From assembly GCA_018902545.1 (NCBI GenBank), contig JAHIQM010000019.1:62001-126000 (forward strand): a stretch of 64,000 nt of DNA, in the 5' to 3' direction. Position numbers and translations under genes: made by a program. Of the stretch, positions 7,789 to 21,796 are shown piece by piece (within the stretch, counting starts at the first letter, position 1; every line of letters starts with the position of its first letter). Source of the DNA: Pseudomonadota bacterium (GTDB lineage: Bacteria; Desulfobacterota; Desulfovibrionia; Desulfovibrionales; Desulfomicrobiaceae). A model generated the notes under the pieces. That model was not told the DNA's origin. It did no database searches and saw nothing but the letters and a program-made list of their open reading frames with translations.

Positions 7789-8372
7789 GTCCCTGGGATC
7801 GGAAATTCCGAAACAGGAGAGGATGGTAAAAAAGGGTGCAAGGAGCAACATTAGACGTTTCATGTGGTGGTGGCTGCCCATGAATTGATATTAGGATTAA
7901 GACGTACCGGTAAGCAAGGCGCAATTCGGGATACGTTTCTCCAACTTTGATTTTGTTTATTAGTTACGTATAATTGTCAAGGTGGTCGCATATTGCTGCA
8001 AACCGCTCGGATTGAGACTCATGGACATGCACAACCTTTGATAGCCGCGCGGGTAGGTTGCGTTGGGTTTGAAGAGAGCGCACTTCTTGTGCAGCCCCCT
8101 GGCCGAGAGACTCGCCGGTGCGCAGTTTTCAGGAGCTGATTCCAGTTTTTGTGGACAGTTCCGTCCTGCCTCGATGCCAGGAAAAATTTGCCTTCCGCCC
8201 AGCGCGTAGATCCGGCAAGGGGTTGCGGTCTATGTCGGTCTGGCACGAGGATTGTAATACGTTTATCGCGATATTGAAATTTCGTAAAAGCTGTATTGGT
8301 GCGAAGCACTTCGACATTGTCGCGCATGCGGCTTTTTGGCATCAGATACAGCGTTTTTTGCAAGGGGGGACC
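7789..8372. other. Divergent intergenic region
   Basis: About 580 bases separate the signalling operon (minus) from a plus-strand lipoprotein gene, and both promoters should lie here. An AT-rich stretch around 7945-7985 is a plausible promoter zone, but no convincing -35/-10 pair or operator could be fixed. Open frames in this stretch lack ribosome-binding sites and recognisable protein character. Confidence 0.4.
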
Positions 8373-8816
8373 ATGAATATTCGACTGGCAATAAAGAAGT
8401 ATGCGTGCGTCGTTGTGGCCCTGGCGATGGCTGCGACCCTTCTGACCGGGACTTTTGCCGCGTGCGCCAGCAGCGGGCAGGCCGACGAGGAAATCATCAT
8501 CGTGGCCAGGAATTATATCTTCATCGATGACATATCCGGTAACGGCGTTGTTATAGGCAGCAAGAAGGGGCATTTCAAGCCTACCGAGTTCAAGGGCACT
8601 GCGGGAACCGCGGTCCTGCTGTTCATGTACAACAGGATCTCCAGGGACAAATGCGTGCAACTCATTTCAAAGCTCTACGAGATAGAGCGAAACACAGTCG
8701 CGCCCAAGGTGGACAGTGTCCTGGCCTTCCTGGAGGAAAACGAACTGCTGCTGACCAGCAAGTACCCTAACCCGTCCAGGAATTACGGGATGAACAAGTT
8801 CAGACCCGAAGAGTGA
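8373..8816 (+). CDS. Small putative exported lipoprotein, unknown function
   Basis: 147 aa. The N terminus (MNIRLAIKKYACVVVALAMA) is a signal peptide followed by a cysteine in FAAC, close to a lipobox. The mature part contains VARNYIFIDDISGNGVVIG and a C-terminal helical segment (LAFLEENELLLTSKYPN) but matches no family I recognise. The ATG at 8373 is chosen because AAGGGGGGA lies 3-10 bases upstream and a signal peptide follows immediately; the frame is open further upstream without a good start. It stands alone, next to the integrated element. Confidence 0.7.
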   Translation: MNIRLAIKKYACVVVALAMAATLLTGTFAACASSGQADEEIIIVARNYIFIDDISGNGVVIGSKKGHFKPTEFKGTAGTAVLLFMYNRISRDKCVQLISKLYEIERNTVAPKVDSVLAFLEENELLLTSKYPNPSRNYGMNKFRPEE

Positions 8817-9284
8817 TGCGGCGCAATACGAAATCGTGCATCGCTTTTGGCTGCCCCTGAATGCTGTGCGCATGCCGGTGGCACGAGCAGGGGCGACTGG
8901 TCGCAAAGAGCGCATGCGCTGGAAGGGCCCGAGTCCGGCTTTTGCAGAATTTTCGATCCATGAAATGTCTCGCGCAGTGAAAGAGATTTAGCCTGCGAGT
9001 ATGGCTTCCCCCCGTTGCATCTACAAGGCATTTTCTCTTTTTGTCGGCACCGTGGACCTGGCCGGTTTGCCTGACCGGGAGCCCGGCCTGCCTGGCCTTG
9101 GGCGGGGTGCTCATGCTCTACAGCGGTGGAGTGTATTGCCTGCGCAAGAGGTGACGACGGGCGAAGACAGTTCACACGGCACCGAACACACCACATATTT
9201 TCTTACCAAGAAATAAAGAAATAAGTGAGCAGGTTTTTACTAATTTCTAAAAAATGATATTCGTGGAAACTTTTTTTGGAATGG
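8817..9284. other. Intergenic region left of the integrated element
   Basis: About 470 bases with no supported gene. Reading frames on both strands are short and lack ribosome-binding sites. The sequence becomes AT-rich after about 9190 as it approaches the tRNA-derived repeat. Before insertion this would have been the region downstream of the tRNA-Arg gene. Confidence 0.4.
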
Positions 9285-9316
9285 AAAAGGGGTTAGATTT
9301 TTACATCTAGCCCCTT
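9285..9316 (-). terminator. Original tRNA-Arg terminator, now at the left junction
   Basis: A hairpin with stem halves GGGGTTAGAT and ATCTAGCCCC is followed on the minus strand by TTTT. The same hairpin with three base changes follows the intact tRNA at 18750-18781. It is best explained as the native terminator of the tRNA gene, left behind beside the displaced 3' fragment after insertion. Confidence 0.6.
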
Positions 9317-9374
9317 GTTTTTATGTGGCGCGCCAGGGAGGACTCGAACCCCCGACCGATTGCTTAGAAGGCAA
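9311..9374. repeat. Left attachment repeat with tRNA-Arg 3' fragment
   Basis: 64 bases identical to 18776-18839. The part 9326-9374 equals the 3' 49 nucleotides of the tRNA-Arg gene: anticodon loop, variable region, T arm, acceptor strand and CCA. Identity stops inside the anticodon stem, where the element's own sequence begins (CAGAAAG). The fragment lacks the D arm and 5' acceptor strand and cannot be a tRNA. Counting three mismatches, the similarity extends left to 9285. Confidence 0.95.
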
Positions 9375-9501
9375 CAGAAAGTAGTATTTACGCCATTTTA
9401 TGCCTTGTGTTGTGGATTGCGCTTTGTAGTCAGTTTTTCAAGTGGTTAAGTCGTAAAATTAGGCTTGACCGTATCGGTCTTTTTATGCTCTTTATGGTCC
9501 T

Positions 9502-9524
9502 GTCGGTGGGGCAGATGGTGGGGC
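9502..9524. repeat. Subterminal direct repeat, left copy (candidate integrase arm sites)
   Basis: 23 bases identical to 18709-18731 near the other end. The repeat contains GGTGGGGC twice (9505 and 9517), and a third GGTGGGGC follows at about 9528. Tyrosine integrases of mobile elements bind short repeated arm-type sites flanking the core; position and repetition fit that role. The copy lies just upstream of the integrase start, so autoregulation is possible. Confidence 0.6.
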
Positions 9525-9554
9525 ATAGGTGGGGCGGATCGATACGGAGGCAGT

Positions 9555-10775
9555 ATGCCAGTAGGTAGAAAAAGGATTAAGGCTGAAGGCTATAACGGGG
9601 TCTTCCTTGTCGATAGCGTATCCCCTGCCAGTGGTGAGCCGGACCAGATAATTTACATCCGCTACAAGCTCGACGGCAAGCTCTACGAGGAAAAGGTGGG
9701 GCGTACTTCTGAGAAAGCGCCGAAGCCGGACCATAAAAAGTTCTGGAGTCCCTCTCTTGCCTCCCTCGTTCGCGCTAATCGGATGCAGAGAAAGGCGGCA
9801 ACAAACGCTCAACTGCGTGCTGAGAAGTTGGCGGCAAAAGAAGCCAAGGAGGGGCGCTGGACCGTTGGGCGCATCTTTAAGGAGTACCAAGACGCGCACC
9901 CTGATCAAGCTAGTATGAAGGCTTGGGTCAGCATCTTCAATACACATATCCTCCCGTCCGCCGTTTCCGGCAAAACTCCCGATGAACTTGTGACCCTGGA
10001 TATTGAGCGCCTACGTCGCGACGTGGCCAAGTCCAAGCACAAGCGCACAGGCAAGCCCCTTAGCGATCAGACCGTCAAGCACGTGCTGTCCCTTCTCAAG
10101 CGGATCTTGCGGTGGGCGGCAGACGCGAACCATATTCAAAGTCCCGTCCATCTGAAATTCAAGATGCCGTCTGTGGACAATGAATCAACCGAGAGCATGA
10201 CCCCGGAGCAAGCCAGCGCATATTTCCAAGCCCTGGATCGGGAAGCAGACCAAGACGCCGCCGCATACTTCCGTTTCATGCTGTTGACGGGCATCCGCAA
10301 GAGTGCGCTTCTAGCCCTGCGGTGGGAAGACGTTGACCTTGACCGAGCTTTCCTTGTCCTGCGTGGCCAAGCCGCCAAGAGTGGCAAGACGCAATCCATC
10401 CCCTTGTCTCCCGGTGCGGTGGAGGTGTTGAAGGGCATTACTCGCACGGATAGCCCTTTCATATGGCCCGGCAAAGATGGTGCGCAGAGAGCAGACTTTC
10501 AACGCACGGGGCGGCGGCTCAGGGACAAGGCCGGACTACCGAAGAATTTCCGACCCTGCCACGGATTGCGGCATTGTTTCGCGTCCTGGCTGGCCTCAAG
10601 TGGTCAGGTTGACCTCTACACTCTGCAACGCCTTCTCACGCACGGCAGCAGCGCCATGACGCAACGATATGCGCATCTGGCGGATGACGCCTTAAAGCGG
10701 GCGGTGGCTGTGGCGGATAGCATCATGGATTCGGGTCAGGGTGAAAATGTCGTAGAGATCAACGGCAAGAGATAA
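9555..10775 (+). CDS. int: Tyrosine-type site-specific recombinase (integrase)
   Basis: 406 aa. The C-terminal catalytic domain has the expected residues: R248 in LLTGIRKSALLALRW, K275 or K278 in AAKSGKTQSIPL, H336-x-x-R339 in CHGLRHCFASWL, H363 in LLTHGSS and the nucleophile Y372 in MTQRYAHL. A core-binding SAM-like domain lies about 100-200 and an arm-binding region about 1-70. The ATG at 9555 is chosen because GGAGG (9546-9550) sits 4 bases before it; the frame is open 30 codons further upstream. The gene reads away from the left att site, as in many tRNA-targeting elements, and should catalyse integration and excision at tRNA-Arg. Confidence 0.95.
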   Translation: MPVGRKRIKAEGYNGVFLVDSVSPASGEPDQIIYIRYKLDGKLYEEKVGRTSEKAPKPDHKKFWSPSLASLVRANRMQRKAATNAQLRAEKLAAKEAKEGRWTVGRIFKEYQDAHPDQASMKAWVSIFNTHILPSAVSGKTPDELVTLDIERLRRDVAKSKHKRTGKPLSDQTVKHVLSLLKRILRWAADANHIQSPVHLKFKMPSVDNESTESMTPEQASAYFQALDREADQDAAAYFRFMLLTGIRKSALLALRWEDVDLDRAFLVLRGQAAKSGKTQSIPLSPGAVEVLKGITRTDSPFIWPGKDGAQRADFQRTGRRLRDKAGLPKNFRPCHGLRHCFASWLASSGQVDLYTLQRLLTHGSSAMTQRYAHLADDALKRAVAVADSIMDSGQGENVVEINGKR

Positions 10776-11504: not shown

Positions 11505-11957
11505 TCTAACCTCCGGCTGATCGTCGGCGGCGAAGTGAATAAGAAGGGCTGTCCAGATGGGCGGCTCTTTTTTTGCTGAAATTTCGTGAGAGAGACCATT
11601 CCACGGTCCTCTACAGCTGTCGAAAAGTCGAACAATTGCAAAAACTTGTCTGAAGTATAGAAAACGGTGTATAGCGGCCATTAGTTGTGCATGTGGCCGA
11701 CTTGGTGCGCAATGCAGGAATGACGTGCCTATCATGGGGGGGGCGCTCAACGCCCAACCAAGACGGGGTTCGCGATCACGTTTTTCTTTTAGGGATGGTC
11801 AAGACGGGGCAACATCACATATGAAGGCAGCAGTGGACGGCAACGTGCGTATAAACGCGAAAGACAGCCTTGATCTGTCCCTCCTTGCGCACTAAGATCA
11901 GAAACAAATCATGGTGAGTAACATTTAACCGCCGAAGTGCAGAGGTCTCAACGAAAT
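11505..11957. other. Intergenic region upstream of the first AlpA-like gene
   Basis: About 450 bases without a supported gene. It probably contains the promoter of the HTH gene at 11958; TATAGA near 11659 could be a -10 but no matching -35 is convincing. A G-run followed by the small hairpin GGGCG-CTCAA-CGCCC lies near 11745. Nothing else was recognised. Confidence 0.35.
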
Positions 11958-12152
11958 ATGATGCTGAATGAAAAACCGTTGAATGAGTTCCAGGTGGCAG
12001 AAATAGTGGGTTTGAAGGTAACAGCGCTTCGCTCTCGCCGTAACCAAGGTAAGCCGCCTGTGTTTTACAAGGTCGGTCGAGCCGTGCGTTACTATCCTAG
12101 CGACGTGCAAGGGTGGTTAGAGGCTGGTCGTGTTGACCCTATTGCGGAGTGA
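11958..12152 (+). CDS. AlpA/excisionase-type helix-turn-helix protein (HTH_17)
   Basis: 64 aa from the ATG at 11958 (an adjacent ATG at 11961 is possible). The fold signature is clear: LNEFQVAEIVGLKVTALRSR is the helix-turn-helix, then GKPPVFYKVGRAVRYYPSDV is the wing and DVQGWLEA the final helix. Such proteins act as excisionases or transcription activators in phages, satellites and integrative elements. The ribosome-binding site is weak. It is one of two related regulators in the element. Confidence 0.85.
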   Translation: MMLNEKPLNEFQVAEIVGLKVTALRSRRNQGKPPVFYKVGRAVRYYPSDVQGWLEAGRVDPIAE

Positions 12153-12211: not shown

Positions 12212-12495
12212 ACTTATTTGTGTCGAATTGTAGAAACTTGTTGACTTTTGTGCTCGATTTTGAGATCCTGGAAGTTAGAGGGCGACACAAAACCGAGAAG
12301 TCTGGTACACTTCCCGGCTCGTGTGGCGAATCGCCGTGTCTGTCTCTCCCATCTTAGGCTGTGCTCGTATTGTGACGCAATTCTAACCAAGACCGCCGAC
12401 AGAAGATGTAAGCTACTAACCCACATGGTCGATTTTCGTCAATATTATTTATTCGAAAATTGAAATCTTCATTGTCGGCGGCAAGGAGCATTTTC

Positions 12496-12702
12496 ATGCA
12501 CTTGTCGGCCACGTCCACAAGTCCCGCCTTTCTTCGTCTACCGGCTGTTGCCTCCCGCCTTGGTGTTCATCCGAATACCATAGGAAACTGGGTGCGTGCT
12601 GGCCAATTCCCCCCACCAATCAAGTTATCTTCCCGGTGTCATGTCTGGAGTCCGCAAGAAATTGCGCGTTTCGTCGAACAGCAGATGGAGGGTGTCGAAT
12701 AA
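12496..12702 (+). CDS. Second AlpA-type helix-turn-helix regulator
   Basis: 68 aa. The motif FLRLPAVASRLGVHPNTIGN followed by WVRAGQFPPPIKL and W-SPQEIARFVEQ is the typical AlpA/HTH_17 pattern. AAGGAG at 12483-12488 supports the ATG at 12496 over an upstream TTG at 12460. In P4-like satellites AlpA activates the element's integrase and excision; here the gene sits upstream of the replication-type gene and may control that module. Confidence 0.85.
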   Translation: MHLSATSTSPAFLRLPAVASRLGVHPNTIGNWVRAGQFPPPIKLSSRCHVWSPQEIARFVEQQMEGVE

Positions 12703-12850
12703 GTAAATCCCTCAGTCAACACATGCCTTTTCATAGCTTAGCCTGATGGCCAATTTTCGCACTGGCTAGCCTTCGCGGGGCGAAGAGCGGGACTGTCTCA
12801 CCCGCCTGCCAGTGCACACTTTTAGAGACGCCACAAGAGACGGTGGAAAT

Positions 12851-13579
12851 ATGTCATTTGAATGGCCTGAATATCGGAGTACGAATAGTTACTTTTTAAT
12901 TCCTTCAACGATAATTGGCATTGAACGTGATGGTGAGCGAATTCCAGGATTGTGGGCGAAGTTTTCACGAGCAGAAAAAGCTGTATACCCAGTTTTGCTT
13001 TCACATAAACATTACACACATACAGTTAAAATTGGAGAAGAGCGGTTAGCAGGTCTATCTGGACTTAAAAGAAGGTCTTCTGCTTGTAATGCAACTGACT
13101 CTTTAGAAGAGCGTGGATTGATTATAGTCAATCGAGAAAGTTCAAGGAGGCATGTAAAATCATACACATTTGAAAATATTGATGCTCCGCGCAAAATTCC
13201 ATTTTACAGAGATGATATTTATTCTGGTGTTTGGGCGGTGCTAGGAAGGCGATGCCCAACAGCACAGGCGCTCTATCTGGCAATGCGTTTTCTTGCCAAG
13301 CCTAGGGCAGACCTTGACGATAATTATGATGCTTGGCCTAGAGATGATGGTGAATTCAGAGAATACTTGATGGAACGTACTGAAGATTTTTGTTTGGTAC
13401 GGCAGCATGAAATACTTGATTACGCCAGAATATCCCGCCGTTCATTCCCAACCGCCTTGGATGCTCTCATGAACGCCCACCTAGTTTACCCCCTTGAAAG
13501 ACGAAGTGGCTACTCCGTCAAACTGTGGTCGGACCAAGGATACAAGATGAGCTATTTAAAAACATTGAAAGTTGCCTGA
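12851..13579 (+). CDS. Winged-helix replication-initiator-like protein
   Basis: 242 aa. Residues about 35-105 resemble the winged helix of plasmid and phage initiation proteins: FSRAEKAVYPVLLSHKHY, then IGEERLAGLSGLKRRSSACN as recognition helix and SLEERGLIIV leading to the wing. A second HTH-like segment lies near the C terminus (LDYARISRRSFPTALDALMN). The ATG at 12851 has GGTGG 5 bases upstream; a GTG at 12812 is open but has no ribosome-binding site. The coding sequence is strikingly AT-rich compared with its neighbours. Four iterons directly downstream support an origin-binding role. A transcription regulator is the alternative. Confidence 0.65.
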   Translation: MSFEWPEYRSTNSYFLIPSTIIGIERDGERIPGLWAKFSRAEKAVYPVLLSHKHYTHTVKIGEERLAGLSGLKRRSSACNATDSLEERGLIIVNRESSRRHVKSYTFENIDAPRKIPFYRDDIYSGVWAVLGRRCPTAQALYLAMRFLAKPRADLDDNYDAWPRDDGEFREYLMERTEDFCLVRQHEILDYARISRRSFPTALDALMNAHLVYPLERRSGYSVKLWSDQGYKMSYLKTLKVA

Positions 13580-13631
13580 CAGTATTATCTGCAAGGGGGT
13601 GTGCGTACGGTATCGATACGGTATATGTTTG

Positions 13632-13708
13632 GCAACCAACCGCCATTAATGTGCAACCAACCGCCTTTAACGTGCAATCAACCGTCTTTAAATGTGCAAC
13701 CAACCGCC
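13632..13708. repeat. Four iterons, candidate replication origin
   Basis: The core GCAACCAACCGCC occurs at 13632, 13653 and 13696, with a variant GCAATCAACCGTC at 13674, each followed by a TTAA or ATTAA element. Spacing is 21, 21 and 22 bases, about two helical turns, so all copies face the same side of the DNA. This is the arrangement of initiator-binding iterons. They start about 50 bases after the initiator-like gene and are followed at once by an AT-rich palindrome. Confidence 0.75.
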
Positions 13709-13723
13709 ACCATTAATCCTTTC

Positions 13724-13739
13724 TTAATCTTAAGATTAA
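13724..13739. other. AT-rich palindrome, candidate DNA-unwinding element
   Basis: TTAATCTTAAGATTAA is a perfect 16-base palindrome embedded in an AT-only run that continues (TAAAAAAATTAATATA) to about 13756. A further imperfect stem (AGAGA/TCTCT flanked by GCGC) lies near 13757-13781. Next to iterons, this is the usual layout of a duplex-unwinding region of a plasmid-type origin. No gene is present from 13580 to 13945. Confidence 0.6.
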
Positions 13740-13945
13740 TAAAAAAATTAATATAGCGCATAGAGATGAACTCTCTGCGCATGTCTATTTTTCTTTGGGA
13801 TTAAGACAGCAAGCAACCATTCCTACCCGTCAATACTTCACTTCACCACAATGATCGAACCTGGACCGTGGCCGGAAACCATTCACCGTTTCCACCTGGT
13901 CCATCCCTTCCCCCTCAACGTCGGCGCAATGCCGAAGGACAAACA

Positions 13946-14137: not shown

Positions 14138-14352
14138 GCGCATCTAACATCGAAAAACAGTCCCCCGCCTCTAAAACCCCTAGCAAGCCCCCCGTTTCCC
14201 GCAAAAAAACCATACGCACGCCCATTGCAAGTATCCGGGCCAAGTGCGTGGATTGTGCAGGTGGAAGTCGTGCCGAGGTCAAGTCCTGCGAACTGACAGA
14301 TTGCGCCCTGTGGCCCTATCGCATGGGCAAGCGGCCAGGCGGTGCAGCATGA
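14134..14352 (+). CDS. Small Cys-motif protein, copy B
   Basis: 72 aa, paralogous to the preceding protein: a Ser/Pro/Lys-rich head, then TPIASIRAKCVDCAGGSRAE followed by VKSCELTDCALWPYRMGKRPGGAA. The C-x2-C...C-x4-C-ALWPYRMG pattern predicts a zinc-ribbon-like or iron-binding fold. The start overlaps the previous stop (ATGA at 14134-14137), and its own final codons provide the ribosome-binding site for the next gene. Confidence 0.78.
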   Translation: MSASNIEKQSPASKTPSKPPVSRKKTIRTPIASIRAKCVDCAGGSRAEVKSCELTDCALWPYRMGKRPGGAA

Positions 14353-14516
14353 GGCAGTCCGACCTTCAAGAGCGCGTCCAAGTGCTCGAAGATGAATTGG
14401 CGTTGATGGGGTCCATGATTGATACCCAGGCGCGGAAGTTTGAGGCGGCGCTTGCTGAACTAGAGAACAGATTGAAGGGGCAGACCAAGCCCCATGCACA
14501 GGAGAAAATGAAATGA
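14349..14516 (+). CDS. Small coiled-coil protein
   Basis: 55 aa, almost all one predicted coiled coil: heptad-like LQERVQVLEDELALMGSMID then ARKFEAALAELENRLKG. It overlaps both neighbours by ATGA (14349-14352 and 14513-14516), showing tight translational coupling. It may be an oligomerisation or scaffold-type accessory protein, but nothing in the sequence assigns a role. Confidence 0.65.
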   Translation: MRQSDLQERVQVLEDELALMGSMIDTQARKFEAALAELENRLKGQTKPHAQEKMK

Positions 14517-15523
14517 CACATCCATATCAAAACGCATGGCAGCAAAGCCCCTGGTTAGGCGCTGCACCTTCTGGACCGCAGACCCCGACCGTCCCAAGTG
14601 GCCCCCCCATGCCGGGGTGGATGAAAACAGGCTATGGAATGGGTGAAGGTCGGTACGCCTCCCCGATCAACGAACCGAACAAAGCCCCCACTACCGCAAC
14701 CGGACAGATCCAGGCGCGAGAGTTGGCGGGTATGTTTGGATCGGTGGGAAAGAGTGCCTTGGGCAAAACAGCCCTGGGTACAGGCGCGGCGATAGCGGCG
14801 GGCTTCGCTCCGTCCTTTGGTGACGTAATCGGCAACCTTGCGGGAAACATTGCTAACCCTGGGACCATGGCGGGGCTTGCCGGGAACCTGACAGCACGGG
14901 CAGCAGGCTTCACGAATCCCACGGGCATGGTGGGGCGCGTTGCAAAGGCTATCAATCCGGCCCTGACAATGGGCCTGGGGCTGATGAGTCCGGCGCTTGG
15001 GCTTGGCTATGCGGCGTTGTCTCCCTTCGCCATGGATGCCCTGGGAGATATGACGAACAGCCGCAAGGACGAAAAGCACAAGGACGCCATGGAAGACGCT
15101 CATGGAACCTTCGGAGGTCGGGCAGCAGCGCGGGACTTCGGGGCAATGGCCCAGGTGGGCGGCTTCGGTAGTCTCGAAAGCATGGGCGCGGCTCATGGGT
15201 ACGGACCCGCAGATATGGCGCGGGGCATGAGCAACAAAGACGCAACCGCCGCAATGGGTGGCCGTAATCCCATGGGTACGTCCTACGGCGGGTGGGGCGG
15301 CATCGGTGGCCCTGATGGTGGAGCGCGTGGCGTAGATCGGGGCTATGGTCCTTCCATGGGCGGCTTCGCAGGGCTAGGCATAGGAAACCCTTCATCCTAT
15401 GGCGGAGGCTCTAGCGGTGGCAGCAGTGGGCGCGGTGGTGGTGTCGGTGGCCTTGGCCGTGGCGACTCTACCGGAACAGGCGGCGGCTTCGGAGATGGTC
15501 GTGGAGGTGTAAGTGGACTGTAA
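14513..15523 (+). CDS. Gly/Ala-rich protein with amphipathic core, possible virion or DNA-ejection protein
   Basis: 336 aa. Residues 1-65 are Pro/Ser-rich and look disordered (SGPQTPTVPSGPPMPGW). Residues about 75-185 are Ala/Gly/Leu-rich and weakly hydrophobic (GKTALGTGAAIAAGF; ALTMGLGLMSPALGLGYAAL). The last 120 residues are extremely glycine-rich (SSYGGGSSGGSSGRGGGVGG). Such composition is seen in phage minor virion and ejection proteins that insert into membranes, but no homologue is identified. The gene is coupled to its upstream neighbour by ATGA and its 3' end overlaps the next start by 11 bases. Strong codon bias and coupling support it as real. Confidence 0.7.
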   Translation: MTHPYQNAWQQSPWLGAAPSGPQTPTVPSGPPMPGWMKTGYGMGEGRYASPINEPNKAPTTATGQIQARELAGMFGSVGKSALGKTALGTGAAIAAGFAPSFGDVIGNLAGNIANPGTMAGLAGNLTARAAGFTNPTGMVGRVAKAINPALTMGLGLMSPALGLGYAALSPFAMDALGDMTNSRKDEKHKDAMEDAHGTFGGRAAARDFGAMAQVGGFGSLESMGAAHGYGPADMARGMSNKDATAAMGGRNPMGTSYGGWGGIGGPDGGARGVDRGYGPSMGGFAGLGIGNPSSYGGGSSGGSSGRGGGVGGLGRGDSTGTGGGFGDGRGGVSGL

Positions 15524-15974
15524 TTCAATTCCAGAAAATACTGGCAGAGATCAGGCCGGGAAGTTCATCAAGGGGCAGTCTGGGAACCCTACAGGCAAGC
15601 CCAAGGGGGCACTACACAAGGCGACACGCGCGGCCCTGGCGCTCATGGAAGGGCAGCTTGAAGAACTGACTCAGGTCGTTATCAACGCGGCCCTGGCTGG
15701 CGATATGACGGCCACGAAAATTGTTTTCGATAAGCTCATCCCGCAGGCGAAGGAAGCGCCAATTGAACCTGGTGCGGTGACGTTGCCGGAACTCTCAGGG
15801 GCTAGCGTGCCGGACGCGGTGGCGGCGATTGTGCACGCGGTGGCGGAAGGTTCACTTCCCCCCGGTCAGGGTCAACAGATCGTTGCCATGCTCGACGGCT
15901 ACAGGAAGGCAACCGAACTGGCAGAGATTGAGGCCAGGCTTACGGCCCTGGAACAATCAGCAGGGGGTGCATAA
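15513..15974 (+). CDS. DUF5681-like protein (possible small-terminase-type)
   Basis: 153 aa. The N-terminal motif GKFIKGQSGNPTGKPKGALH is the DUF5681 signature, found in many phage and prophage proteins near packaging genes. A helical middle (ALALMEGQLEELTQVVINAA) and a C-terminal coil (EIEARLTALEQSAGGA) follow. The start is GTG at 15513, preceded by GGAGGTG; it overlaps the end of the Gly-rich gene. If the DUF5681 link to terminase small subunits holds, it could redirect a helper phage's packaging machinery to this element. That is inference. Confidence 0.7.
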   Translation: MDCNSIPENTGRDQAGKFIKGQSGNPTGKPKGALHKATRAALALMEGQLEELTQVVINAALAGDMTATKIVFDKLIPQAKEAPIEPGAVTLPELSGASVPDAVAAIVHAVAEGSLPPGQGQQIVAMLDGYRKATELAEIEARLTALEQSAGGA

Positions 15975-17569: not shown

Positions 17570-17941
17570 TTACTTGCACTTAAATGCGTCTGCAAGCGCC
17601 ATGAATATGCAAAATCTTGCGCTTTCATGTAGTTGGTTGGGGTTATTTTTTAAAAAATTGGCGATAATCATTGCAGCTTGCCCGCCTTCAACCCCTTTTT
17701 CTGGAATACAATATGCTCCTGTTTTTGTAAGTGTCTCATATAATACGCTACTATCAAGGTACCCAGCAATATATCCAGTCCAAAATATTGAAATAGTCAC
17801 TTCATCCACAGACATATCTTTTTTTTCAATGTCAGCAATTATTGCATTGCATCCACGAAGCAATTCGTTTCCTGTGCGTTCTGCCAGAGCATTTGAAGAA
17901 AAAGAAAAAATAAGTATTGTCAACGCTACCAGTCGAAACAT
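17570..17941 (-). CDS. Rap1a/Tai-like exported immunity-type protein
   Basis: 123 aa with a signal peptide (MFRLVALTILIFSFSSNALA). The mature sequence fits the Rap1a/Tai pattern: LLRGCNAI near the start, FWTGYIAGYLDS, a YCIPEKGVEGGQAAM block, then FLKNNPNQLHESARFCIFMA and a final ADAFKCK. Characterised members are periplasmic immunity proteins that bind type VI secretion amidase or related effectors, though many family members have other or unknown roles. No matching toxin gene is adjacent, so it would be an orphan protective factor carried by the element. Confidence 0.7.
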   Translation of the reverse strand: MFRLVALTILIFSFSSNALAERTGNELLRGCNAIIADIEKKDMSVDEVTISIFWTGYIAGYLDSSVLYETLTKTGAYCIPEKGVEGGQAAMIIANFLKNNPNQLHESARFCIFMALADAFKCK

Positions 17942-18475: not shown

Positions 18476-18749
18476 GGTAACCCCCTTTGATACCCCGTAG
18501 CAGGATTTTGCGGGGTGGTCAGCAATTAAAGTTGTCATACGCCGACAAGTTTTTCAAATTGGTAGTGCCTGCAGGTGTTAGACGATGATTCTCTGTTGAA
18601 TATGCAATGCGGTAATAATAGATGATGTCGCAGAGGCATGAAAAAGTGGCTCGGTAGGTCGATGTAGCTACGGCGGAAATTGAGTGCCTGAGAGGCGTTT
18701 TATGAGTGGTCGGTGGGGCAGATGGTGGGGCGCTAATTTGGGATATGAC
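18476..18749. other. Right inner end of the element
   Basis: About 270 bases with no gene. This region should carry the promoter of the exported-protein block and the right-end recombination sites, including the subterminal repeat at 18709-18731. No clear -35/-10 was identified. Confidence 0.35.
18709..18731. repeat. Subterminal direct repeat, right copy (candidate integrase arm site)
   Basis: 23 bases identical to 9502-9524, with two GGTGGGGC units, lying 44 bases inside the right att repeat. Two identical subterminal copies outside any shared gene suggest integrase or excisionase arm-binding sites. Confidence 0.6.
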
Positions 18750-18781
18750 AAAAGGGGTCAGACTTTTACATCTAACCCCTT
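18750..18781 (-). terminator. Terminator of the tRNA-Arg gene
   Basis: On the minus strand, a stem of AAGGGGTTAGA with TCTGACCCCTT (one mismatch region) is followed by TTTTG directly downstream of the tRNA 3' end. It is 3 bases different from the copy at 9285-9316, so it was probably carried in as part of the element's own tRNA-like att sequence. Confidence 0.65.
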
Positions 18782-18839
18782 GTTTTTATGTGGCGCGCCA
18801 GGGAGGACTCGAACCCCCGACCGATTGCTTAGAAGGCAA
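18776..18839. repeat. Right attachment repeat, inside tRNA-Arg
   Basis: 64 bases identical to 9311-9374. The repeat covers nucleotides 29-77 of the tRNA (anticodon arm through CCA) plus 15 bases downstream, so insertion preserved a complete tRNA. The likely crossover lies in the anticodon stem-loop, a common target of tyrosine integrases. Confidence 0.95.
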
Positions 18840-18867
18840 TTGCTCTATCCGCCTGAGCTACTGGCGC
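18791..18867 (-). tRNA. tRNA-Arg (UCU)
   Basis: 77 nucleotides fold as a standard tRNA: acceptor GCGCCAG/CTGGCGC, D stem GCTC/GAGC, anticodon stem ATTGC/GCAAT with loop CTTCTAA (anticodon TCT), T stem GGGGG/CCTCC with loop TTCGAGT, discriminator G and an encoded CCA. It reads arginine AGA/AGG codons. The gene is intact despite hosting the integrated element in its 3' half. Confidence 0.96.
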
Positions 18868-20389: not shown

Positions 20390-21796
20390 GTGTCTTCTCT
20401 TTTCAGACATATTCCGTCCGTGGATCGTTTTCTGCTGGAACTGGAGGGGGATCAGGCCCTGGCCGGCCTGCCGCGCCAGTTGCTCAAGGATCTGGTGGCC
20501 GAGTTTCTGGACCTGTGCCGCGAGGAGATTCGCGCCGGAATCGTCACCGACGAGAGCGCCCTGTCTTTTGCGACCTTGGCGGCAAGAGCCGGGGCCTACG
20601 TACGGGCTCGCTCCCGGCCGCATTTCCGGCGGGTGGTCAACGCCACCGGCGTGGTCATCCACACCAACCTGGGCCGCTCCATCCTGGCCGCAGAGGCCGT
20701 GGCCGCCGTGGCCGAGGGGTGCCGCCATTACTCCAACCTGGAGATGGACCTGGACACGGGCCAGCGCGGCAGCCGCTATTCCCATGTGGAGAAGCTCTTG
20801 TGCCGCCTGACCGGGGCCGAGGCGGGGCTGGTGGTCAACAACAACGCCGCGGCCGTGCTGCTGGTCCTCGACACTCTGGCCAGAGGCCGCGAGGTCGTGG
20901 TCTCGCGCGGGCAGTTGGTGGAGATCGGCGGGTCTTTTCGCATCCCCGAGGTCATGAAGAAGAGCGGGGCCGTGCTGCGCGAGGTCGGGGCCACCAACCG
21001 CACCCACCTGCGCGACTACGAAGGGGCCATCGGCGCGGACACGGCCATGCTCATGAAAGTGCACACCTCCAACTACCGTATCATCGGGTTCCACAAGGAG
21101 GTCGAATTGCCGGAACTGGTCGCCTTGGGCCGCGAACGGGGCCTGCCGGTCTTCGAGGACCTGGGCAGCGGCAATCTGTTTGATTTTTCCCCGTATGGGT
21201 TCATGCCCGAGCCCACTGTGCAGCAGGTTTTGAAAAGCGGAGTGGATGTGCTCTCTTTCAGTGGCGACAAACTGCTCGGCGGGCCCCAGGCCGGGATCAT
21301 CGTCGGCCGTAAGGCGTACATCGATCTCATCAAGAAGAATCAGCTCAACCGCGCCCTGCGCATCGACAAGATGACCCTGGCCGCCCTGGAGGCGACCCTG
21401 CGCCTGTACCTCGACCCGGAATTGGCCCGACGCAAGGTGCCGACCCTGGCCATGATCACGGCTGGCCGCGAGGAGTTGACGGCCAGGGCCCGGCGGCTTG
21501 GGCGCAGGCTCTCCAAAGAGCTGACGGGGCTGGCCGAGGTGCGGGTCAAGCCCGGATTTTCGCGCGTCGGAGGCGGTTCCTTCCCGGAGCAGGACCTGCC
21601 TACCGCGCTGGTCGCTGTCAGACCTCTGTCCACGGACGTGGAGACCCTGCGCCAGGGCCTCTTGGCGGAGGACATCCCGGTAGCGGGGCGGGTGGAGGAC
21701 GGAGCGTTCTGCCTTGATCCGCGCACCCTCATGAACGAGGAGTTCGCGCTGGTGGCCGGGGCCTTACGGGCGGTTTTGGCAGGTGGGGCGAAGTGA
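20390..21796 (+). CDS. selA: L-seryl-tRNA(Sec) selenium transferase
   Basis: 468 aa PLP enzyme converting Ser-tRNA(Sec) to Sec-tRNA(Sec) with selenophosphate. The N-terminal region FRRVVNATGVVIHTNLGRS is diagnostic, and the PLP lysine is K294 in SFSGDKLLGGPQAG. The start is GTG, with GGAGG at 20381. Its presence implies the organism makes selenoproteins; selB and selC are not in the window. Confidence 0.96.
   Translation: MSSLFRHIPSVDRFLLELEGDQALAGLPRQLLKDLVAEFLDLCREEIRAGIVTDESALSFATLAARAGAYVRARSRPHFRRVVNATGVVIHTNLGRSILAAEAVAAVAEGCRHYSNLEMDLDTGQRGSRYSHVEKLLCRLTGAEAGLVVNNNAAAVLLVLDTLARGREVVVSRGQLVEIGGSFRIPEVMKKSGAVLREVGATNRTHLRDYEGAIGADTAMLMKVHTSNYRIIGFHKEVELPELVALGRERGLPVFEDLGSGNLFDFSPYGFMPEPTVQQVLKSGVDVLSFSGDKLLGGPQAGIIVGRKAYIDLIKKNQLNRALRIDKMTLAALEATLRLYLDPELARRKVPTLAMITAGREELTARARRLGRRLSKELTGLAEVRVKPGFSRVGGGSFPEQDLPTALVAVRPLSTDVETLRQGLLAEDIPVAGRVEDGAFCLDPRTLMNEEFALVAGALRAVLAGGAK

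Follow-up and report, generated by a model that had tools for sequence, protein, structure and literature searches.

A probable iteron-type replication origin behind a predicted Pi/RepE-like initiator gene in a tRNA-Arg-integrated, phage-satellite-like element

An integrated element of 9.5 kb was identified within the 64-kb stretch of DNA analysed here (the window, referring to the whole stretch). The element is bounded by 90-nt direct repeats that are 87/90 identical: the left, att-like repeat (9285..9374) carries the 3' part of a tRNA-Arg sequence, and the right repeat (18750..18839) overlaps a complete tRNA-Arg gene (18791-18867, minus strand). Just within both element ends lie identical 23-nt repeats (9502-9524 and 18709-18731), which are possibly integrase arm or excisionase sites. 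Read from the left, the plus strand carries genes for a tyrosine integrase (9465..10775; PF00589, E 1.4e-24; phrog_1, E 4.5e-49), a small helix-turn-helix (HTH) protein of the excisionase/regulator type (11937..12152; HTH_17, E 3.5e-05, just below the cut-off; phrog_66, E 1.3e-07) and an AlpA-like protein (12460..12702; PF05930 Phage_AlpA, E 1.8e-06, above the cut-off). These are followed by an int-alpA RNA (Rfam RF02996; 12759..12828, plus strand; 55.5 bits against a gathering score of 35.8, E 1.3e-09), which lies between the AlpA-like gene and a gene for a putative replication initiator, Rep (12851..13579, plus strand). Past Rep and the repeats behind it are a small gene (14349..14516), a gene for a 336-aa protein (14513..15523) and a DUF5681 gene (15513..15974; PF18932, E 2.6e-11) with relatives in 2 phage records, all on the plus strand. 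Two small cysteine-containing open frames and a set of minus-strand genes are also inside the element, and the minus-strand cargo includes a gene for a Rap1a-like immunity protein (17570-17941; PF18602, E 5.2e-13).

Judged by its gene content, the element is likely to be a phage satellite. Viral, phage-like contig L066 encodes a 34% relative of the 336-aa protein (7971-8993), and we read the neighbours of this relative, from their translations, as tail and internal virion proteins. Among the ten element proteins scanned, no packaging or transfer machinery and no helicase or helicase-loader gene (Pfam, PHROG) was recognised, and no primase (Pfam). No helper phage was identified, and a search of the element's own genome for the 336-aa and DUF5681 genes returned only the element's own copies. 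The int-alpA RNA was considered as a fixed leader of rep and was rejected as such. At the gathering score it occurs near rep only in the window and in 1 of 20 further loci (L041), with a weak one in L019; within the genus, 8 of 16 genomes have matches at E ≤ 0.001, and in several cases the match follows an integrase gene. This RNA marks a wider element family, not the Rep–iteron replicon.

Past the Rep stop codon, which ends at 13579, four iterons (13632..13708, plus strand) have cores that start at 13632, 13653, 13674 and 13696. The 13-nt core, GCAACCAACCGCC, is present in three exact copies and, at 13674, in one copy with 2 mismatches; the start-to-start spacing is 21, 21 and 22 nt. This array, as described in the original prediction, was borne out: when the 64-kb window was scanned for sets of four 13-mers spaced by 17-26 nt, it scored best (37/39), and the 25 best starts all fell within 13628-13653. 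Elsewhere in the window, the core (≤2 mismatches) occurs as one lone site at 20990. The first core starts 52 nt past the stop codon; the array had been placed 50 bases after an initiator-like gene, and its position directly after the gene stands, with the distance amended. The gap that separates Rep from the iterons contains TACGGTAT twice in direct orientation, spaced by 11 nt, together with a small palindrome, GTATCGATAC (13605-13626). The DnaA box has the motif TTWTNCACA, and no site with ≤1 mismatch to it was found from the Rep stop to 14500. We know of no requirement for such a box that would extend to every iteron origin.

The iterons are followed by an AT-rich stretch (13713..13755, plus strand) that is a candidate unwinding element. 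It holds four copies of TTAAT (13713, 13724, 13736 and 13748; spacing 11, 12 and 12 nt), the first of which begins 4 nt beyond the end of the last iteron core. No other 45-nt segment of the 64-kb window is as AT-rich as the one that starts at 13711 (87%). Of 5000 dinucleotide shuffles of the 52-nt region, none chained four identical 5-mers at a spacing of 11-13 nt, and none of 2000 did so when any three-wide spacing range within 6-20 was admitted. When three copies in exact 12-nt phase were sought with 3 mismatches allowed, 5 overlapping matches were obtained, all at the AT-rich stretch, compared to 0.12 expected per window. The best array of four 6-nt units past the Rep stop starts at 13712 and scores 17/18, which was equalled by 0/170 other 300-nt windows (first 26 kb); with a setting of 3 x 8 nt, the row was not significant (13/200 shuffles; best match elsewhere).

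The same stretch had been predicted to hold a 16-base AT palindrome within an AT-only run, as part of the origin. The palindrome, TTAATCTTAAGATTAA (13724-13739), is indeed a perfect 16 bp; it contains C and G, however, and the AT-only run, at 13735-13755, is 21 nt long and overlaps just the last 5 bases of the palindrome. The window has only 2 AT-only runs of at least 16 nt, this one included. Palindromes of at least 16 bp arose in 40/5000 shuffles of the 52-nt region, a weak significance on which we rejected the palindrome as a functional part. It also lacks support as an origin component because tandem 12-nt repeats explain the AT-rich stretch better. The stretch is thus better read as four TTAAT repeats than as a palindrome. 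A stem-loop after the repeats (13756..13780, plus strand) was not above background and was not called as a terminator. By eye it had seemed to be conserved 3' of the repeats in other loci; of the 22 regions compared, L095 alone came up to the 95th percentile in a test that omitted seven loci (L050-L053, L094, L096 and L097), and it was rejected as a conserved feature.

Rep is a protein of 242 aa when read from the ATG at 12851; its open frame also permits a GTG at 12812. Its assignment as a putative initiator draws on a weak Pfam match, on the PHROGs of its homologues and on structure alignment. The only Pfam match was HTH_36 (E 0.0088, below the cut-off), and no PHROG matched the window protein. 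Rep_3, the Pfam plasmid initiator family, was absent from the matches of Rep (to E 0.1) and of 13 aligned homologues (to E 0.01). No close relatives were found by a pattern scan of genome and viral contig collections, a method that detects close relatives only, and tblastn gave none in plasmid and phage records. Viral contigs gave no relatives when searched with alignments A1, A3 and A4 or with the L036 protein; from genome contigs, A1 recovered one locus (L035), a distant homologue on a contig of an uncultured delta-proteobacterium. With a three-sequence alignment, matches to Rep were obtained in 25 of the 348 genomes of the order, its own genome counted. All 13 aligned Rep proteins matched HTH_36 at E ≤ 0.01; 11/13 matched phrog_270 ('replication initiation protein'), 8/13 matched phrog_678 ('O-like') and 8/13 matched a DnaD-like loader family.

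The structure of Rep, modelled from two sequences with modest confidence (pLDDT 64, pTM 0.67), was predicted to comprise a winged helix (~34-106) and, besides it, another domain that is mostly helical. Foldseek alone gave no match of this model to the PDB below E 0.001; among viral structures its best match was an HTH protein (TM 0.50), and the matches included one lambda GpO-type protein. Foldseek's 1000 best PDB chains were re-aligned and ranked. The top alignment was to Pi with iteron DNA (2nra_C; Z 8.1, 177 residues, rmsd 4.4), where a Z near 8 may reflect a common arrangement, according to the tool's own warning, and the model has a pLDDT of 64. Ranks 2-13 were taken by RepE54 entries, by co-crystals titled as the same series and by a Rep with single-stranded unwinding-element DNA (8ac8_A), and an RctB fragment ranked 23rd (Z 7.2, 162 residues); for most other proteins, only 61-87 residues were aligned. 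The re-aligned list would also accommodate other fold families. A second model, of the L035 homologue, was poor (pLDDT 46) and was left unused. Pi and RepE, both plasmid initiators, thus give the best structural alignments of the Rep model, across ~175 residues and with modest support.

The DNA past the Rep stop was compared by eye in 22 loci, after exclusion of the five weakest of 26 matches. Repeat statistics were then obtained for 21 regions including the window (L053, with a short frame, was dropped), with other 300-nt windows of the same loci as background (n = 1763) and the 99th percentile as threshold. With settings that, here and in the shuffle and outside-order tests below, were fixed only once visual inspection had revealed the layout, iteron arrays exceeded this threshold in 8/21 regions compared to 14/1763 background windows, and ~12-nt rows (4 x 6) exceeded it in 9/21 compared to 4/1763. 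Shuffle tests mostly agreed with these results. At least one of the two tests was passed by 13/21 regions and both by the window, L038, L039 and L049; the 12-nt row of L008 is not independent because it overlaps the L008 iterons. The remaining 8/21 regions (L003, L035, L042, L043, L047, L050, L051 and L052) passed neither. At the same thresholds, loci from outside the order yielded iterons in 2/7 cases (L093 and L095) and 12-nt rows in 1/7 (L092), with neither in 4/7 (L091, L094, L096 and L097); the 12-nt row of L091 exceeds all 56 of that locus's own background windows.

Both kinds of repeat vary in sequence among these loci. Iterons were, for example, GCAACCAGTACCC in L036, TGGGAAATAGATGCCC in L041 and CCGGCAATGAG in L049, spaced mostly at 20-24 nt with some longer gaps. 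A second row at ~12 nt follows the iterons in many loci, with cores, picked by eye, such as AAGGAC (L036), AAGGAT (L038) and AAGTAT (L045 and L049). Overall, the order of Rep, iterons and ~12-nt repeats recurs in a number of distant homologues, not in all. A window-like integrase gene lies upstream in the same orientation in 9 of the 21 non-window loci; a tenth, L047, has it downstream on the other strand. In 6/21, one or other of the two small HTH/AlpA-type proteins has a relative. Sites like the TTWTNCACA box were seen on the minus strand within the iterons of L008 (two exact) and L037 (three near-exact). Upstream of the Rep homologue in L012, an R1162-like plasmid antisense RNA (RF00043; 3626-3698, minus strand) scored 46.6 bits, below the gathering score of 55.

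A sibling element (L007; G009), from another genome of the same genus, carries a different replication module in the same place. It has in common with the window element the 336-aa gene (65%), one small cysteine-containing gene, a small lipoprotein-like gene and the 14349-14516 gene (45%, E 1.4e-12), and it encodes Prim-Pol and DUF927 in the slot occupied in the window by Rep and the iterons. The Prim-Pol gene is split by a two-gene transposon (L007 14203-16501) that, from the translations, we read as IS21-like. In L003, Rep is followed by another relative of the 14349-14516 gene (35%, E 1.0e-08); in both L007 and L003 this relative lies directly 3' of the replication module.

These results make it probable that 13632-13755 is the replication origin of the 9.5-kb tRNA-Arg-integrated element and that 12851-13579 encodes its initiator, of the Pi/RepE type. 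The origin reading is supported because the iteron array and the AT-rich stretch both exceed chance, because the order of Rep, iterons and ~12-nt repeats recurs behind several distant homologues, and because the predicted Rep structure aligns best with Pi and RepE. The iteron-type origin layout of the original prediction is thereby partly supported, with tandem AT-rich repeats in place of the palindrome. What the sequences establish directly is the repeats with their significance, a layout that returns behind a sizeable share of the homologues, both ends of the element and the primase-helicase module in the sibling's slot; the binding of Rep to the iterons, melting, replisome recruitment, and replication after excision together with its timing are inferred. 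Rep would be a two-winged-helix protein of the Pi/RepE kind that binds the four iterons, ~two helical turns apart, on a single face of the DNA. The resulting assembly would open the adjoining AT-rich stretch of four ~12-nt repeats, to which the helicase and replisome of the host would be recruited. Rep may in addition bind a single strand of the 12-nt repeats, as its counterparts do in RK2 and F, and the short gap that separates the iterons from the 12-nt row would fit an RK2/F-like machine. Excision driven by integrase and excisionase would come first, followed by replication; given the 90-nt att-like repeats at a tRNA gene and the integrase and AlpA-type genes, it is reasonable to suppose that the element replicates after excision.

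An origin of the phage lambda O type, dependent on the helicase loader of a helper phage, is an unlikely alternative to which the O-like and DnaD-like loader matches of 8/13 aligned homologues each, the single lambda GpO-type protein among the viral structure matches and the lack of a recognised helicase or loader gene among the ten proteins scanned would be suited. At lambda ori, four iterons lie beside AT-rich DNA and the initiator O is a winged-helix protein, but the iterons are inside the O gene, whereas all four cores in the window are past the stop codon of Rep. The window Rep itself has no O-like PHROG match, and its best two-domain structure alignments are with plasmid initiators, as far as the model can be relied on. 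We regard it as quite unlikely that the locus is a former origin in an element now reduced to a remnant, past excision or replication: the integrase, AlpA-type and Rep genes are open, the att-like repeats remain 87/90 identical and 3/4 iterons are identical, even if the element is of small size and its ten scanned proteins included no recognised packaging or transfer machinery.

A third alternative, in which the gene would encode a transcriptional regulator with the four repeats as its tandem operators and no origin would be present, appears highly unlikely. The repeats lie 3' of the gene, not 5', and in several loci are followed by AT-rich 12-nt rows; the sibling carries a primase-helicase in the same slot, and Pi, RepE and RctB align with the second domain of the Rep model. 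In favour of this alternative, the winged helix of the first domain is of a generic kind, with GntR, MarR-like and CodY regulators among the PDB-chain profile matches, and the structure lists contain many regulators that align over 61-87 residues. That the palindrome is instead the functional part, such as a cruciform nick site for rolling-circle replication, is hardly credible, since its perfect 16 bp are equalled in length in 40/5000 local shuffles, a rolling-circle Rep was not named among the ten proteins scanned and the homologues share the 12-nt phase instead.

The best reading is an iteron-type replicon, with a predicted two-winged-helix Rep, four iterons and a repeat-built unwinding element, in a phage-satellite-like element. 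A broader proposal, which we offer as a possibility rather than an expectation, is that an initiator family of the two-winged-helix Pi/RepE fold, unrecognised by sequence, drives a family of integrated, phage-satellite-like elements that extends beyond this order to other families within the phylum. The origin design would be constant (iterons at 20-24 nt, the last one near a ~12-nt row) and both repeats rewritten in each element, as if Rep read the iterons in double-stranded form and the 12-nt repeats in single-stranded form, and the cassette would be exchangeable with a primase-helicase. If the origin reading is correct, it would provide a compact replicon for a group of integrated elements with previously unassigned replication, and its homologues would form a natural series of initiators and origins whose protein and two repeat kinds vary together. 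On the same condition, the comparison with the sibling suggests that these elements swap plasmid-type and primase-type replication cassettes.

No description of this Rep family was recognised by title or the start of the abstract in a literature search that covered mostly papers outside subscription. In the available text on the plasmids RK2, F and R6K, a two-winged-helix initiator acts at iterons that adjoin an AT-rich, tandemly repeated unwinding element (PMC4081077, PMC4980987); the RK2 unwinding element has four 13-mers, all of which TrfA needs, and the Rep proteins of RK2 and F bind one strand of the unwinding element (PMC4081077). The window shares iterons at approximate multiples of the helical turn and an adjoining tandem-repeat AT-rich element, and its Rep may have the two winged helices, as predicted on a model of modest confidence. 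Unlike these plasmids as described there, it lacks a match of Rep to a Pfam plasmid Rep family, has a ~12-nt unit and no DnaA box that we could find, and lies in an integrated element.

Gram-negative PICIs, according to the available text, carry an integrase gene, AlpA, rep and an origin 3' of rep in which iterons adjoin an AT-rich region (PMC6092414), and the window likewise has an integrase, AlpA and the rep-then-origin order at an attachment site. PICIs have a Pri-Rep and two iteron sets that flank the AT-rich region (PMC6092414), whereas in the window Rep is a predicted winged-helix protein, a single iteron set lies to one side of the AT-rich stretch, and that stretch itself holds repeats of another kind.

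The nearest precedent in the sources available is the rep-oriV of SGI1 (PMC7433901). Its Rep has RepA_C, which is absent from the Pfam matches of the window Rep to E 0.1, and its oriV has a putative DnaA box, whereas the window's origin region yielded none. IncC plasmids mobilise SGI1, whereas the window element carries phage-related genes. In SGI1, rep is followed at once by an oriV with four iterons and AT-rich DNA that holds short repeats, the excised form replicates, and related islands have an unrelated replicase/primase-type gene instead of rep (PMC7433901). The window presents the same succession of a putative rep, four iterons and AT-rich short repeats in an integrated island. The apparent swapping of cassettes parallels that of SGI1-like islands and would bear on the exchange of parts between satellites and plasmids.
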